From Enorma massiliensis phI (GTDB taxonomy: Bacteria > Actinomycetota > Coriobacteriia > Coriobacteriales > Coriobacteriaceae), in contig NZ_HE978574.1 in NCBI RefSeq assembly GCF_000311845.1, forward strand, positions 698,034 to 746,900: a DNA stretch of 48,867 bases, read 5' to 3'. Positions 1,179 to 39,845 of the stretch are shown piece after piece (position 1 is the stretch's first letter; each line of letters starts with the position of its first letter). The notes under the pieces are model-generated. The model saw only the letters and a program-made list of their open reading frames with translations, did not search any database and was not told where the DNA came from. Made by a program: the position numbers and the translations under genes.

Positions 1179-3698
1179 CTAATCGACGCCCACAAACAGG
1201 CAGCCCGACGAAGAGCCCTTCTGCCGGGGCGCGGGCTTGCGTCCGGCGCGCGCGGCGTCAAGCGCCCGGCGGGCGCGTTCGGTCTGATCGGAGAGCTCCT
1301 CGGGCTCGAGCAAGGTTCCGTCGACGAGGAAGCGCCTCACGCCAGCGGAAAGGAGCGCGGGCATCTGGGGCGTAAGGTCCAGGGGATAGGCGTCGTACAA
1401 GCGAGAACGACCGTGGATGTCGGTGCGGACGGGCAGCATCTTGTCGTCGATGTTGTGGAGCGCGAGCTTGCGCATGCGTAGCGAACAGCGGGCGCAGTCG
1501 TGAATGCATGCGTTTGCGACCTGCAGGATGCAATGTTCGCTCGTCATGACGCGCGGCTTTCCGTATACGCAGATGCCGAGCGTAAGGGGACTCGCGGGGG
1601 CAATGCGCTCAATCTCGGCAAGCGAGAGCTCGGGGGAGAGCCAGGCGGCGCGGGCGCCTTCTCGGGCAAGGAGCTCAAGGCACGGCCGGTTGTGTGCGGG
1701 GATGCACGAACGCACTTCGGCGAGCGCCGAGCGCTCCGCGGCAAGGGCAAGTTCGGAGATATTGCCGACGGCGACGGCGGCGCCGGTTTCGACCCAGGAA
1801 TCGAGCCGTTCGCGGTCGCCTGCGCGGCAGACCTCGTCAAGCACGGGAATGAGGCCGAGCTCGCGGGCTTGGGCGGGGGAGATACCCGCCGCGTCGAGGT
1901 CGTCGGTGGCCATATAGACTCGGTCGGCGCCTGCGCGGCGCGCAGCATCTGCCGCCTCGAGCGAAGTGGCGAGCGCGCAAACCATCGCCTCCGCGCCCCG
2001 TGCGTCTTTGTGCTCGTTCGCAGAGTCCGCGACGCCGCGGTGCGAGGGGATGTCCAAGCGTTCGGCCAGCTCCGCGCGACGCTGGCTTGGAGCGAGAATG
2101 GCTTCCTCGAGCAAGTCGCATGCGGCGGCTCGCACCTTGTGGACGGCGGAAAAGCCCATGCCGCAGCCCTCATCGAGCTCGACGGAGCAGGTCCGCATCT
2201 CAAACGGGCTCGAGCCCATGCGGCCAACGTGTTCTACGAGGTCATCGGACGAGACGGGCCTAGTGCGCGCTTCCTCGACGATGAAGCCCTGGGCGCATGC
2301 GGTGAGCGAGGGGTTGTCGCAGCAAGAGAGCTCGACCTCGAACGGCTGGCCCCGGCGGGCGCGCACCCGCACATCGACGGGGCGCTTGCGGGGGTAGGCG
2401 CGCTTGAGCACGTCGTCGGCACGGTCGATTGCCGCCTGGCTACGAATGATGCGCACGCGGCACCGCTTCCCGGGCGGTCGTGGGAGCTCGACATCGAGTA
2501 TCTCGCCGGCGGCGGTATCACGGCGTGCGAGGGCCGTGAGGAACGTGTCCGGATCATCGTCGTCGCGCAGCTCAAGGAGATCGCCTGTCCCAACGGGCGC
2601 GTCGAGTGCGAGGTGGGCGGTGCCCGCAGGCCCCTTGATAGCCGCTCGCAGGCGCTCCCCCTTGGTTTGGGGCTCGCGCGCGGTGAACCCGGCGACGCGG
2701 CCCACGAGCTCGCCTCGATTGTTCGACCGCTCGTAGCTCATCATGTCGTCGTCGGAGGTGCCGTCTTGGTACGCGTGCGTGAAGTCGCGGTTAAAGCAGC
2801 GCTTGAGTTGGCGCTTACGAGCCGCCTGCTCCTTTTCGCCCGCATTCCGCCCTGCAAGAACGTCGTCGAGCTCGCGGCGGTATACATCCGTTACCGAGAA
2901 GACGTAGTCGGCGGCCTTCATGCGACCTTCGAGCTTGAGTGCCGAGGCGCCTGTGTCCACGAGCTGGGGGAGCAGGTCGGTCGTGCAGGTGTCGCGCGGG
3001 CAGAGCGGCCGACCGCGGCCGGGTGCCGAGATCTCGCGCCCCTGCTCGTCAATGAGCTCGTAGGGTAGGCGGCACGGCTGCGCGCACATGCCGCGGTTGG
3101 CGGAGCGCCCGGCCTGGCAGAAGCTCGAGAGCAGGCATACCCCGGAATAGCTGAAGCAGATGGAGCCGTGGGCGAACACCTCGAGGTCGATGCCGCACTG
3201 CTCGTGGATGGCGGCGATCTCGCCCAGGGAGAGCTCGCGCGAAAGCGTCACGCGGTCGGCGCCCAGGCGCTCGCACCATGCGGCTCCGCGTGCGTCATGG
3301 ATGTTTGCCTGGGTGGAGATGTGCGTCTCGATTTCGGGCATAAGCCGCTTTACTTCCGAGAAGAGGCCCCAGTCTTGAATGATGAAGGCGTCGGCGCCGA
3401 GCGCCGTGCACCGGCGGATGAGCTCGACCGCCTCGTCCATCTCGTCGTCTTTGATGACGATGTTGGTGGTTACATAGACGCGTGCGCCAGCAAGGTGCGC
3501 GGTCCGGCACGCGCGGGCGAATTCCTCGTCGGTGAAGTTCTCGGCCTTGCGTCGCGCGTTCATGGTTCCCATGCCGAGGTAGATGGCATCGGCACCCGCC
3601 GCAAGGGCCGCTGCGAACGGTTTGGGGCCGCCTGCGGGGGCGAGGAGCTCCACACGTCGCGCAAGGGACGGTGCTTGTTGAGTTGGGCGATCGGCCAT
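1179..3698 (-). CDS. U32-family protein, RlhA-like, with extended C-terminal module
   Basis: The 839-residue product starts LLAPAGGPKPFAAALAAGAD, typical of U32 proteins. It has the U32 signature EVFAHGSICFSYSGVC at about residues 173-188 and further Cys-containing segments (GMCAQPCRLPYEL). E. coli RlhA, a U32 protein, makes 5-hydroxycytidine in 23S rRNA, and some U32 proteins have been called collagenase-like peptidases. Pairing with a pseudouridine synthase favours an RNA-modification role (inference). The last 240 residues (from about 600) read like a second, degenerate U32-type barrel with its own Cys cluster (ACIHDCARCSLRMRK), making the protein longer than the roughly 650-residue E. coli RlhA. 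The ATG at 3698 is chosen because AGAGAGG lies 6-7 bases upstream; the open frame extends further to 3797 without a better site. Confidence 0.85.
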   Translation of the reverse strand: MADRPTQQAPSLARRVELLAPAGGPKPFAAALAAGADAIYLGMGTMNARRKAENFTDEEFARACRTAHLAGARVYVTTNIVIKDDEMDEAVELIRRCTALGADAFIIQDWGLFSEVKRLMPEIETHISTQANIHDARGAAWCERLGADRVTLSRELSLGEIAAIHEQCGIDLEVFAHGSICFSYSGVCLLSSFCQAGRSANRGMCAQPCRLPYELIDEQGREISAPGRGRPLCPRDTCTTDLLPQLVDTGASALKLEGRMKAADYVFSVTDVYRRELDDVLAGRNAGEKEQAARKRQLKRCFNRDFTHAYQDGTSDDDMMSYERSNNRGELVGRVAGFTAREPQTKGERLRAAIKGPAGTAHLALDAPVGTGDLLELRDDDDPDTFLTALARRDTAAGEILDVELPRPPGKRCRVRIIRSQAAIDRADDVLKRAYPRKRPVDVRVRARRGQPFEVELSCCDNPSLTACAQGFIVEEARTRPVSSDDLVEHVGRMGSSPFEMRTCSVELDEGCGMGFSAVHKVRAAACDLLEEAILAPSQRRAELAERLDIPSHRGVADSANEHKDARGAEAMVCALATSLEAADAARRAGADRVYMATDDLDAAGISPAQARELGLIPVLDEVCRAGDRERLDSWVETGAAVAVGNISELALAAERSALAEVRSCIPAHNRPCLELLAREGARAAWLSPELSLAEIERIAPASPLTLGICVYGKPRVMTSEHCILQVANACIHDCARCSLRMRKLALHNIDDKMLPVRTDIHGRSRLYDAYPLDLTPQMPALLSAGVRRFLVDGTLLEPEELSDQTERARRALDAARAGRKPAPRQKGSSSGCLFVGVD

Positions 3699-7679: not shown

Positions 7680-7767
7680 GGAGGCGCTGCCGGCGCAGGC
7701 CCGTCGCTTGCCGGGCGCGGCGTCGTCGTTTTGCTCGTGTTGTCGAGCTTGTTCGTAGGCGCTTTTT

Positions 7768-8045
7768 CGGGCGAGATTTAAACGATTGATTCGCTTTCAG
7801 GCATATTTCGGACGCCCGCCCCGTTCTCGGGCGGGTTTCCGCCATCTGCGTGCTTCTCGGGCGACTTTCAGACACCCGCTCCGTTGCCGGGCGACTTTCG
7901 GACATCCATTCCGTTTTCGGGCGGCTTCCGTACGCTCGGAGGCTCGAAAACGTCCAGATATCGCCCGACAACCGAGGGAGTGTCCGGATTGCGCCCGGCA
8001 ACGGGACAAGTGTCAGGATTGCGCCCGAGAAGCCACGCGCTAGGG
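7768..8045. repeat. Palindromic array of 30-bp units, copy A
   Basis: Six left units start at 7768, 7798, 7828, 7858, 7888 and 7918, exactly 30 bp apart, each beginning CGGGCG (second unit CAGGCA) and mostly followed by a TTTCGGACA-like block. A centre (about 7930-7960) follows. The right units start at 7962, 7992 and 8022 and are the reverse complement of the left consensus (CGCCCGACAAC...GTCCGGATTG). The whole forms one large imperfect palindrome. Conserved and variable halves alternate within each unit. The same architecture occurs at 22292-22635. Confidence 0.85.
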
Positions 8046-8145
8046 GCGCATCGGGAGGCCCCGTCCGCGCGATGCGCCGGAATGAGCGCCGATGGATTCA
8101 TCTGACCCAGCAAGCTCCATGCTACGAGTATCTTGAAAACGTGCG
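7918..8145. repeat. Long direct repeat, left copy
   Basis: This segment is largely similar to 10901-11130 in the same orientation. A 31-base stretch (7929-7959) is identical to 10912-10942. Other shared blocks include GAGGGAGTGTCCGGATTGCG, CGCATCGGGAGGCCCCGT and a final TATCTTGAAAA/CATCTTGAAAA block. The two copies bracket the ABC transporter and peptide genes. Confidence 0.8.
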
Positions 8146-10872: not shown

Positions 10873-10900
10873 AAAAGCCCTGGAGATGGGAGGCTTTTCT
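10873..10900 (+). terminator. Weak terminator-like hairpin after the peptide gene
   Basis: AAAAGCC (10873-10879) pairs with GGCTTTT (10892-10898) around a 12-base loop, and the right arm supplies the T-run. The stem is short. It sits about 100 bp after the peptide gene, at the edge of the repeat copy. Confidence 0.4.
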
Positions 10901-11130
10901 TGGGCGACTTTCGTACGCTCGGAGGCTCGAAAACGTCCAGATGTCGCCCGGCAACGGAGGGAGTGTCCGGATTGCGCCCGACAACCGCGCGAGCGTCAAA
11001 TCTCGCCCGAGAAGCAGCGCGCTAGGGGGCGCATCGGGAGGCCCCGTTCGCGCCATGCACCGGGATGAGCACCGAGGGGCTGCCAGCTCAGCAACCTCCA
11101 CACTGCAAGCATCTTGAAAATGTGGATTTC
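10901..11130. repeat. Long direct repeat, right copy (shortened palindromic array)
   Basis: This copy aligns with 7918-8145. It keeps one left unit (10901), the centre shared with the other copy (10912-10942 identical to 7929-7959) and right units starting at 10945, 10975 and 11004, the second being 29 bp. It lies between the peptide gene and rplE. Confidence 0.8.
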
Positions 11131-21209: not shown

Positions 21210-21428
21210 CACATTAACGGTGGTGGCGTCTTGCTTCTGCGTTGGCGACGGTAACGGCGTTGGTGTTTTGTTGCTGTTGAGTTATTGCATGCCGAAGTTC
21301 AAACGCGGTCGCGCTTCATTTCATACTGTCGGCGTGTTCGATGCAATAGGTGATGGATGGGCGGGCGCGCGATTGCGCTCATGGCTCAAAAGATGAAAAG
21401 CTCGCTCGATGCTGGAGGGAGGCGTCGA

Positions 21429-24400
21429 ATGATTGAGGTAGTAGATGCCATTGTCGACGGCGCACTTCACGGCGTCTCGCTTTGCGTCGAGCGCGGCGAG
21501 GTCGTTGCGCTCATCGGACACAATGGTTCCGGCAAATCGACGCTCGGGCGACTTGTGTGTGGGGCCCAGTTGCCTCAATCCGGTACAGTTTGCGTCGATG
21601 GGGCGTCTACCGCCAATGTGCCGGGGCGTGCCCTTGTGCGCCGTCTGGTTGGGTATGTTGGCCAAAATGCTGCTGACCAGACCGTGTCGACCATCGTGAG
21701 TGACGAACTCGCTTTTGGTCTATGGAATATCGGTTGCGCGGAAGGGGAGATTGCAGAGCGAGTTGCGAGTTCGCTTGATGCTGTGGGGCTTGCGGGCTTC
21801 GAGGACCGTGAGGTGTCATCGCTTTCTGGCGGAGAGCTCCAACGCCTCGTGCTGGCTTCTGTGCTCGCAATGGAGCCTGGCTATCTCGTGCTCGATGAGG
21901 TGACTTCTCAGATCGATAGCACCTTCCGGTCCCAGTTCAGGAGCCTGGTGGCGCGTTTTGCTGGGCGTGGCGTTGGCGTGGTTCTCGTCACCCATGATCC
22001 GCTTGAGGTGCTTTCGTGCAACCGGGTGCTCGTGCTCGATGCTGGCAAGGTGATCTGGTCGGGGGCTCCGGGTTCGCTTCTGGTCAATTATCGTGATCTC
22101 TGGGATTGGGTTTTGCCCCCGAATGACTATGCCGACGCGTTGCGGTGTGCCGTTGCCGATGGTTTTGATCTTGCCGGTGGGTTTGCTCCGGCTCACCTTG
22201 CCACGTGGCTTCGCAGCGTTCGAGCAGATGTGCGCTCCGGTGCGGGGTCCCCTCTCGATGCCGACCTAGATTCTGGTATCGGTCGCGTTGCCGGGCGGCA
22301 TCTGGACGACCACATCGTTGTCGGGCGAAATCTGGACGATGTCATCGTTGCTGGGCGAGATTCGGACAGCGCCTCTGTTTTCGGGCACAATTCGGACGCT
22401 TGCGGCGTTTCCGGGCGAGATTCGGACACTCACAGCGTTTCCGGGCGTAAATCGGACACTCAGGTGTCTCAAAATGGCGATTTTTCGCCCGACAAGGGAG
22501 CCAATGTCCGAATTCAGTCCGACAACGGGGGCGGTGTCCGAATTCCGCCCGAAAACGGCGCCAATGTACGAATCTCGCCCGACAACGGAATCAATATCCG
22601 AATCATGCCCGAGTACGCTTCCAATTCCTCGATTCCGTCTGATGGCGCCGGGGCTTTCAGCGCGATATCCGGAAACGATCGTGGAACTGAAGGCGAGCCT
22701 GCGCGCGAAGCGAGCTCCCTGGCATTCAGCCACGTCTCCATTGCCTATGAAAACGCGGAAGTGCTGAACGATATCTCGCTTTCGATTCCATCCGGACGGG
22801 TGACGCTTATCGCAGGTCGTTCAGGTGCGGGCAAAACTACGCTCGCATGTCTGGCGGCCGGACTCACCAAGGCGCAGTCGGGCTCAGTACTGCTTGGCGG
22901 CACCGCACCTGTACCGGGCGAAGTTGCCCTAGCGTTCCAGAATCCCGAACAGCAGCTCTTTCTCGAGACGGTAGAGCACGAACTCGCCTTCGCACCGCGT
23001 AATCTTGGCTGCTCGGATGAGGAGGTTGCTCGGCGCGTGAGCGATGCGGCCTCACAGCTCGAGATTAAGGAACTGCTGCCAAGCGATCCGTTCTGCCTAT
23101 CGGGGGGCCAGGCTCGCCGGGTGGCGCTTGCAAGCATTCTCACGCTCAGCCCCCGCGCGGTTGTTCTCGACGAGCCCACAGCCGGTCTCGACGCTCCGGC
23201 TCGCGCGGCGCTCCACCGCTTGGTGCAAGATCTTGCCTGCAAGGGGCTTCCGGTTCTCGTGGTGAGTCATGATCTTGAAGAGTGGCTCGCTGCCGCAGAT
23301 CAGGTGGTTCTGCTTGCAGACGGCACGATTGCATGGCAAGGGACGCCAGGCGCACTCGCTTCGGATATGGATGCGTTTGCGCGGGCGGGGCTTGAGCCGC
23401 CAGAATCCTGGCAGCTTCGTGAGCTGCTCGCACAAGCGGAGAAGCGCGATTCTGCAGGCGTGAACGGGGCCACGTCAGCGAAAACAGCCACACGGGACCA
23501 AGAGGCCGGTGCCGCGCGCGGCCCGGAGGGCGTGGAGGCGCAAGAGCCGAGGGCAACGGCGGCGCGAGATTCGAAGAGCACGGCAGCGCAAGGACCGAAG
23601 GCCACAGTCGCGCGGACGCTGAAAGGCGCTGCCACACAAGAGCCATCCTCGCACGGATCGGATGTCGCGGCCAGGCCAAGCCGGAAGGACACGGCAGGGC
23701 GTGGGCTGGAAGGCGTCGACGCGCGCGTAAAAGTGACCCTTCTGCTTGTCGCGACGGCCGCGCTCTTTGCCGCGAGGGCTCCTTGGACACTTGTCATGTG
23801 GGCAATGCTCTGTCTGTTGGTACTGCGCGCATCCGGCATCGGGGGCAAGGCCGTTGCACACGCCCTGAAGCCGGTCGCCCTGCTCTTCGCGTTCATCGTC
23901 TGCGCAAATCTTGTCTCTTGCGACGGAAGCGCCGACGTTGCCATCGCGGGGAGTGTTGGTATCAGCACGGTGGGTGCCGCGCGCGCCGCCACCGCCGTGG
24001 CGAGGATCATCATGCTCGTATGTCTTGCGCTTTCGGTCGCGACATCTACAACGCCAACCAAGCTCGCACACGCCTGCACGAGTCTCATGAGGCCGCTCGG
24101 TCATATCGGGGTGCCGATCGAAGACGTCGGGCTTGTGCTATCGATGGCCCTGCGGTTCATTCCCGTTGTCTCCGAAGAGGCGGGGCGCATCAGGCTCGCG
24201 CAGCGGGCACGCGGTGTCAACTTCGACGAAGGGTCGGTGCTCAGGCGCGTGCGGGCATGGGCGGCGGTGCTCACGCCGCTCGTGGTCGGGCTCTTCAGGC
24301 GCGCCGATCGCGTGGCGGAGTCTATGGATGCCCGCTGCTACGGCCAGCGGAGCTCTGGGCAGCATAGACGCGTATCTTTGCAACCTGCGGACAAGCTCGT

Positions 24401-37821: not shown

Positions 37822-37938
37822 CGGTCATTATGGGACGTGTTTGTTTTGACCGTTTTTGGTCGGTCATTATGGGACGGGTTTGTTTTGACCGTTTTTGGTC
37901 GGTCATTATGGGACGGGTTCATTTTGACCGTTTTCGGC
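37822..37938. repeat. 39-bp tandem repeat, three copies
   Basis: Units start at 37822, 37861 and 37900, each CGGTCATTATGGGACG followed by GTTTGTTTTGACCG and TTTTTGGT; the third has a few changes. GGTCA/TGACC and GACC/GGTC pairings make each unit able to fold. It lies between gltB and gltD. Confidence 0.92.
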
Positions 37939-38017
37939 CACAAGGGGACGTCACAAGGGGACGGATTTGATGCGGGGCGGATTGCCCGCAGTCGATAAGG
38001 TTTGAGAGGGGATATCG

Positions 38018-39761: not shown

Positions 39762-39845
39762 TGCAAGAAAAGACTGCAACGATTTGCAAGAAAAGGACTG
39801 GTTTTGAGCGCCCTGTCTTGCAGAATGTTGCAATCTTTTCTTGCA
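39762..39845. repeat. Imperfect 29-bp inverted repeat with TGCAAGAAAAG arms
   Basis: Bases 39762-39790 match the reverse complement of 39817-39845 at 25 of 29 positions, with a 26-base loop. The arms are AT-richer than the background. It could terminate the convergent transcripts, although T-runs sit inside the arms. Confidence 0.7.

Follow-up and report, generated by a model that had tools for sequence, protein, structure and literature searches.

The arrays described here share features with several known systems. Each Rickettsia palindromic element (RPE) stands alone, measures around 150 bp and encodes a conserved peptide, and nearly half of these elements lie in genes (Ogata 2000, 2002, as relayed in PMC10969869); like our arrays, they are dispersed palindromic repeats of which some stand in frame in genes and are translated (PMC10969869). 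The REP, BIME and REPIN-RAYT systems also comprise species-specific dispersed palindromic repeats, and their partner gene is flanked on both sides by its own repeat, with repeat and protein differing together (PMC2817692, PMC3116915). MITEs are small non-coding inverted repeats able to fuse in frame with open reading frames. In type IV toxin-antitoxin systems, the antitoxin AbiEi binds to inverted repeats located at its own promoter.

The ECF gene and its in-frame array

We analysed a stretch of 48,867 nucleotides from Enorma massiliensis phI (the window), which contains the gene for an ECF fusion, a vitamin/metal transporter, between rplQ upstream and truA downstream, both named by sequence inspection (Table 1). 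The product has two ABC_tran stretches and a CbiQ stretch, all above the Pfam cut-offs, and thus meets the A-A-T criterion for an ECF transporter; the ORF opens at 21357, and the start of the gene possibly lies further upstream than listed. A palindromic array of short repeats is placed between the two ABC_tran matches, ahead of CbiQ, and can be read through without a stop as part of the 1009-aa ORF. It spans 22286-22623, with plus-strand units starting at 22286, 22316, 22346, 22376, 22406 and 22436, a 14-nt junction, and inverted units starting at 22474, 22504, 22534, 22564 and 22594. The junction measures 38 nt from start to start, each of the nine within-arm steps is exactly 30, and the arms are around 70-80% complementary. 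Six matches to the 23-mer consensus (at most three mismatches) were found, against none in 100 shuffles. These unit starts and steps, together with the Pfam matches, bear out a preliminary description of an in-frame array between the ATPase domains, composed of six left units, a centre and five inverted right units; the array it located is real, and its start had been set about 6 nt too late. The same protein has a second disordered linker, between A2 and T (23460-23720), which is longer than those of its relatives and contains an imperfect 24-bp repeat. Elsewhere in the window, two large genes are separated by a stretch (37822-37963) with a 13-bp repeat and a 39-bp tandem repeat of 2.9 copies at 95%.

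Table 1. Features of the window discussed in the text (positions are those of the window).
Feature	Position	Strand	Basis
ECF transporter A1-linker-A2-T fusion gene, 1009 aa	21429..24458	+	ABC_tran x2, CbiQ x1; ORF
Codons of predicted disordered linker, residues 271-426, array included	22239..22706	+	AlphaFold model; ortholog alignment gap
Left arm, six 30-bp units, consensus CGTTNTCGGGCGANATTYGGACAC-N6	22286..22465	+	
Centre: innermost left unit, 14-nt junction (22460-22473), innermost right unit	22436..22497	.	
Right arm, five inverted units	22474..22617	-	
Intergenic GGGC/GGAC array, 6 left + 3 right units	7762..8033	.	
Short intergenic GGGC/GGAC array, 1 left + 2 right units	10895..10986	.	
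AbiEi-like family member, 336 aa, one of five in genome	39964..40974	-	Family profile E 5e-139; alignment
Palindrome, different motif (TTGCAAGAAAAG), just 3' of the family member	39762..39845	.	35-nt arms, 83% complementary

The GGGC/GGAC array family

Scanning stretches of the genome (a draft of 2,280,503 bases in three contigs) with a position weight matrix built from the ECF array gave about 200 units in about 36 arrays, and a profile search over the whole genome gave a consistent picture. In every array the arms point to the centre, and a junction of 38 nt is shared by all but one of the 32 two-armed arrays (31), the remaining one having 37. With genes called by a simple codon-usage script, 33 of the 36 called arrays are clear of genes; the other three overlap the ECF gene, a thymidylate kinase gene at its 3' end, and an EttA-like gene whose stop codon falls inside the first unit of its array. 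Arrays occur in tandem, convergent and divergent gene gaps, with no preference for convergent gaps seen among those called.

Two intergenic arrays in the window confirm that the family of the ECF array recurs there between genes, as had been noticed beforehand. The shorter of them nearly copies the centre of the longer (7912-8003), downstream flank included. The surrounding segments, 7905-8060 and 10890-11050, are near-duplicates, and the gene that follows looks like rplE without rplX or rplN before it; this duplication and gene context make a rearrangement breakpoint possible. Apart from that one local duplication, neither a recent array copy nor a target-site duplication could be demonstrated, and the empty orthologous sites are too diverged to resolve the array boundaries.

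The exact core motif is absent from the 99 relatives (present in 1 of 100 genomes), and outside this genome profile matches fell only on one contig of genome G026 and two of G001. These contigs align to our genome at 91-99% over kilobases, with lower parts (one flank at 87%, one segment at 71%), whereas G026 and G001 are elsewhere only around 70-86% alike to it; we therefore regard the array-bearing contigs as DNA from a close relative that was either transferred or misbinned. One contig pair carries the same array in versions differing by one 30-bp unit. At three other array sites, congeners have no array. On the G001 contigs two orthologous arrays lack the centre (L135 at 4947, L136 at 4976), in one case along with about 1.2 kb that includes most of an MFS-like gene, through either a palindrome deletion or an assembly effect. 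A phage or plasmid origin was set aside, there being no match in phages or plasmids; 45 viral contigs each held one motif match and no array.

Palindromes are hard to assemble and the genome is a draft in three contigs, which leaves room for an assembly artefact or chimera at the ECF palindrome. We find this barely credible: the ECF array is not copied from any other array, members of the family stand at the same loci in independent assemblies (L134 and L085), and the array lies in frame within an uninterrupted gene.

To see what the units conserve, we compared 62 units picked by register only. The GGGC block is intact in 58 and the GGAC block, 11 bp away, in 53, while the 6-nt spacers are near random (32-38% identity). 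Units are 63% identical within an arm and 60% between arrays; since the resemblance between units is barely higher within an array than across arrays, block copying is not visible. The units of the ECF array likewise share a common motif at around 60% identity and not a near-identical sequence. A CRISPR array was excluded, as such arrays hold near-identical repeats in one orientation, parted by unique spacers, in contrast to units about 60% alike in two opposed arms.

The complementarity of the inverted arms in the ECF copy and the mostly intergenic position of the family would suit an array that acts as an RNA or single-stranded DNA hairpin, be it a terminator, an mRNA stabiliser or a REPIN-like transposition intermediate. 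However, the arms do not covary (1137 pairs observed against 1150 expected, p=0.79, by arm swap between 31 arrays, a comparison of limited power), single units fold no better than shuffles (-6.6 against -6.8), Rfam gave no match for the array, and arrays stand in all three kinds of gene gap and within a gene. We thus ruled out intra-unit hairpins on their folding energy and hairpin selection on the lack of covariation, and consider a hairpin role as a whole unlikely. Retention of the blocks without arm covariation makes duplex DNA recognised by a protein likelier than a selected hairpin; we infer that the unit is a sequence recognised on duplex DNA.

The same observations weigh on mobilisation of a REP/REPIN family by a Y1 transposase (RAYT). 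The genome does encode three Y1_Tnp proteins of 256-316 aa, and the dispersal of the arrays is REP-like. Nevertheless, the 3.3-kb loci around the three Y1_Tnp genes contain no array units, the units are not hairpins, and the compensatory changes common in REPINs (PMC3116915) have no counterpart in the GGGC/GGAC arrays. We judge a RAYT-driven family highly improbable.

The linker as a translated segment

The left arm encodes V-x-G-R-x-[LS]-D and the right arm P-[DE]-N-G-x-x-[IV]-R-I. Two peptide repeat types, one per arm, had been anticipated, and this holds; they do not alternate as supposed, being segregated by arm. AlphaFold gives the linker a pLDDT mostly below 50; within it, residues 281-426 fall below this value, at around 25-30 over most of their length, without secondary structure. 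The comparison of ECF orthologs that had been suggested, taken across the genus and the family in an alignment of nine rows (four of which seem to represent only two loci, each retrieved twice), returned a short A1-A2 linker and no array at this position. Conservation of the linker protein across genera with synonymous drift would have told against an invading array, and the opposite was seen: the linker is absent in relatives, and the differences between ECF units are not enriched at third codon positions, a result of weak power given the few units. The ECF units score like those of other arrays (27.3 against 26.4 bits).

Counted over every frame, the 32 arrays contain 142 stop triplets, compared with 387 in composition-matched shuffles, and the ECF reading phase is open in 17 of the 32. 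We attribute the survival of the reading frame to the period of 30, the stop-poor motif and this frequency of open phases; with so few stops in any frame and over half of the arrays readable in this phase, no special selection has to be invoked for the open frame. Together with the orthologs lacking the array and the empty sites in congeners, the period and the motif leave well supported the earlier suggestion that an array could invade a gene without disrupting it.

Alternatively, the linker could have been selected at the protein level as a functional repeat segment, its DNA likeness to intergenic repeats being incidental. The frame is indeed open over 338 nt, and the steps within its arms never depart from 30, whereas 22 of the 136 in other arrays do (two of these being multiples of 30). 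Against such selection, the DNA motif, orientation and 38-nt junction match some 35 mostly intergenic arrays, the arms yield different peptides from the same DNA, there is no third-position excess, and the segment is predicted to be disordered and is missing from all aligned relatives. Selection as protein is accordingly very unlikely in our estimation. The translated linker is most likely a tolerated passenger, and that the peptide is made at all remains an inference.

The thymidylate kinase has an array-encoded C-terminus, ending ...DVRALVLGQQLDTEGVFGRGLDIEGA where the G001 version ends ...DVRALVGLA, and is read in the same phase as the ECF linker. The gene lies at 2191-3048 of locus L094; its last codons are array-encoded, and it ends at the array centre.

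Taken together, we consider it probable that the ECF gene houses, as a passenger, a member of a lineage-specific family of dispersed palindromic arrays. We propose that each 30-bp unit would be a bipartite site for a DNA-binding protein, with two blocks one helical turn apart, and that such sites would stand head to head around a fixed centre. An array of this kind would have entered the short A1-A2 linker, where its multiple-of-three period and almost stop-free motif would let translation pass, and the protein would tolerate the resulting disordered segment.

AbiEi-like proteins and comparison with known systems

A second array family, of unrelated sequence and the same anatomy, was found in 320 kb sampled from the congener G004. 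Its 31-bp units (TCGTA-N7-TGCA, blocks around 11-12 bp apart) form inward-pointing arms with a junction of 36 in all seven arrays seen. One of these arrays is adjacent to a gene of 373 aa, on its 3' side; the gene encodes an AbiEi-like protein with a putative PD-(D/E)XK part and has a lone unit at its 5' end. The protein family is present in 24 of the 25 genomes searched of this taxonomic family and was not found in the viral contigs. PADLOC matched two members to AbiEi (E 2e-8 and 5e-8), and in some members the profile covers about residues 47-166. An invariant pattern in the alignment, E-S..R, D, E-x-D-G..K, suggests a PD-(D/E)XK nuclease fold, which is inferred from these conserved residues only and is not confirmed. 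The family has no Pfam match and no credible PDB match; a hit of its profile to 9d01, which looks like a repetitive helical protein, was discarded. The member in the window has no Pfam, NCBIfam or PADLOC match, and its single-sequence model (pLDDT 40) is unusable.

A repeat common to both flanks was found at 32 of 56 family loci and at 3 of 151 control genes (Fisher p=5e-19), while 2% of mispaired flanks share one; sharing was defined as a local score of at least 22, all controls were drawn from this one genome, and the gene limits are approximate. The shared segments are clearly palindromic in 22 of the 32. Two further genera have family genes bordered by phased arrays of around 31 bp (L327, L312), and gene-flanking palindromes with dispersed copies occur in G004 (L287) and in this genome (L293). 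At a further locus, L288, palindromes lie on either side of the family gene (1309-1382 and 2533-2608), and their motif recurs beside family genes in two genomes from another genus (L299, L300). The GGGC/GGAC arrays look like a single instance of a broader, apparently undescribed group of palindromic repeats, each specific to its species, that is linked to this family of AbiEi-like, nuclease-type proteins.

No family gene in this genome adjoins a GGGC/GGAC array. The flanks of L295 (C1:329575-330549) score highest of the 56 loci with our matrix; they hold divergent units only and a junction of 48 nt, and their best score is 16.7, against at least 16.5 in 2% of control flanks. As a candidate partner of the arrays, L295 is suggestive only. 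By analogy with REP/RAYT, arrays of this type may be spread or maintained with AbiEi-like, putative PD-(D/E)XK proteins flanked by matching repeats, an unrelated protein taking the RAYT part; we see the case for this as about evenly balanced. More tentatively, and leaning slightly against it ourselves, we raise the possibility that the Coriobacteriaceae harbour a genetic parasite or regulon of a class not yet described, in which fast-diversifying AbiEi-like or nuclease-type proteins would each have their own bipartite motif of around 20-31 bp; head-to-head palindromic arrays of that motif would flank the gene and spread, sometimes into genes, and the ECF array would be a domesticated or tolerated product. 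The association of repeat and protein is more surprising than the linker result, and it is where experiments are most needed. Among the titles and abstracts listed, those on iTHR included, none mentioned an association of AbiEi with palindromes or inverted repeats.

The known systems differ from these loci in distinct ways. The AbiEi-profile part of some family members recalls the antitoxins, whereas the family has an extra C-terminal nuclease-like region, and its repeats lie on both sides of the gene and in dispersed copies. Unlike the repeats of MITEs, the arrays vary in unit number, and no defined terminal inverted repeats or target duplication were found. In contrast to REP/RAYT, the protein is AbiEi-like with a putative PD-(D/E)XK part and not Y1, the units are not hairpins and the arms do not covary, and each arm has several phased units around a fixed centre. 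Repeats on both flanks, with paralog- and species-specific motifs, nevertheless offer a testable second pairing of the REP/RAYT kind in which the protein is unrelated; they also suggest a possible function for a protein family unnamed in the annotation libraries searched.

Compared with RPEs as described in PMC10969869, the GGGC/GGAC arrays are of variable length, built of phased 30-bp units, nearly all intergenic and without a conserved peptide. The likeness is limited to the idea of in-frame palindromic insertion, with no sequence relation shown; insertion of this type is seen in both the ECF linker and the thymidylate kinase C-terminus. A dispersed DNA element can thus be intrinsically readable through a multiple-of-three period and a stop-poor motif, and the arrays offer an actinobacterial counterpart, of different architecture, of the 'protein-coding palindromes' of Rickettsia.
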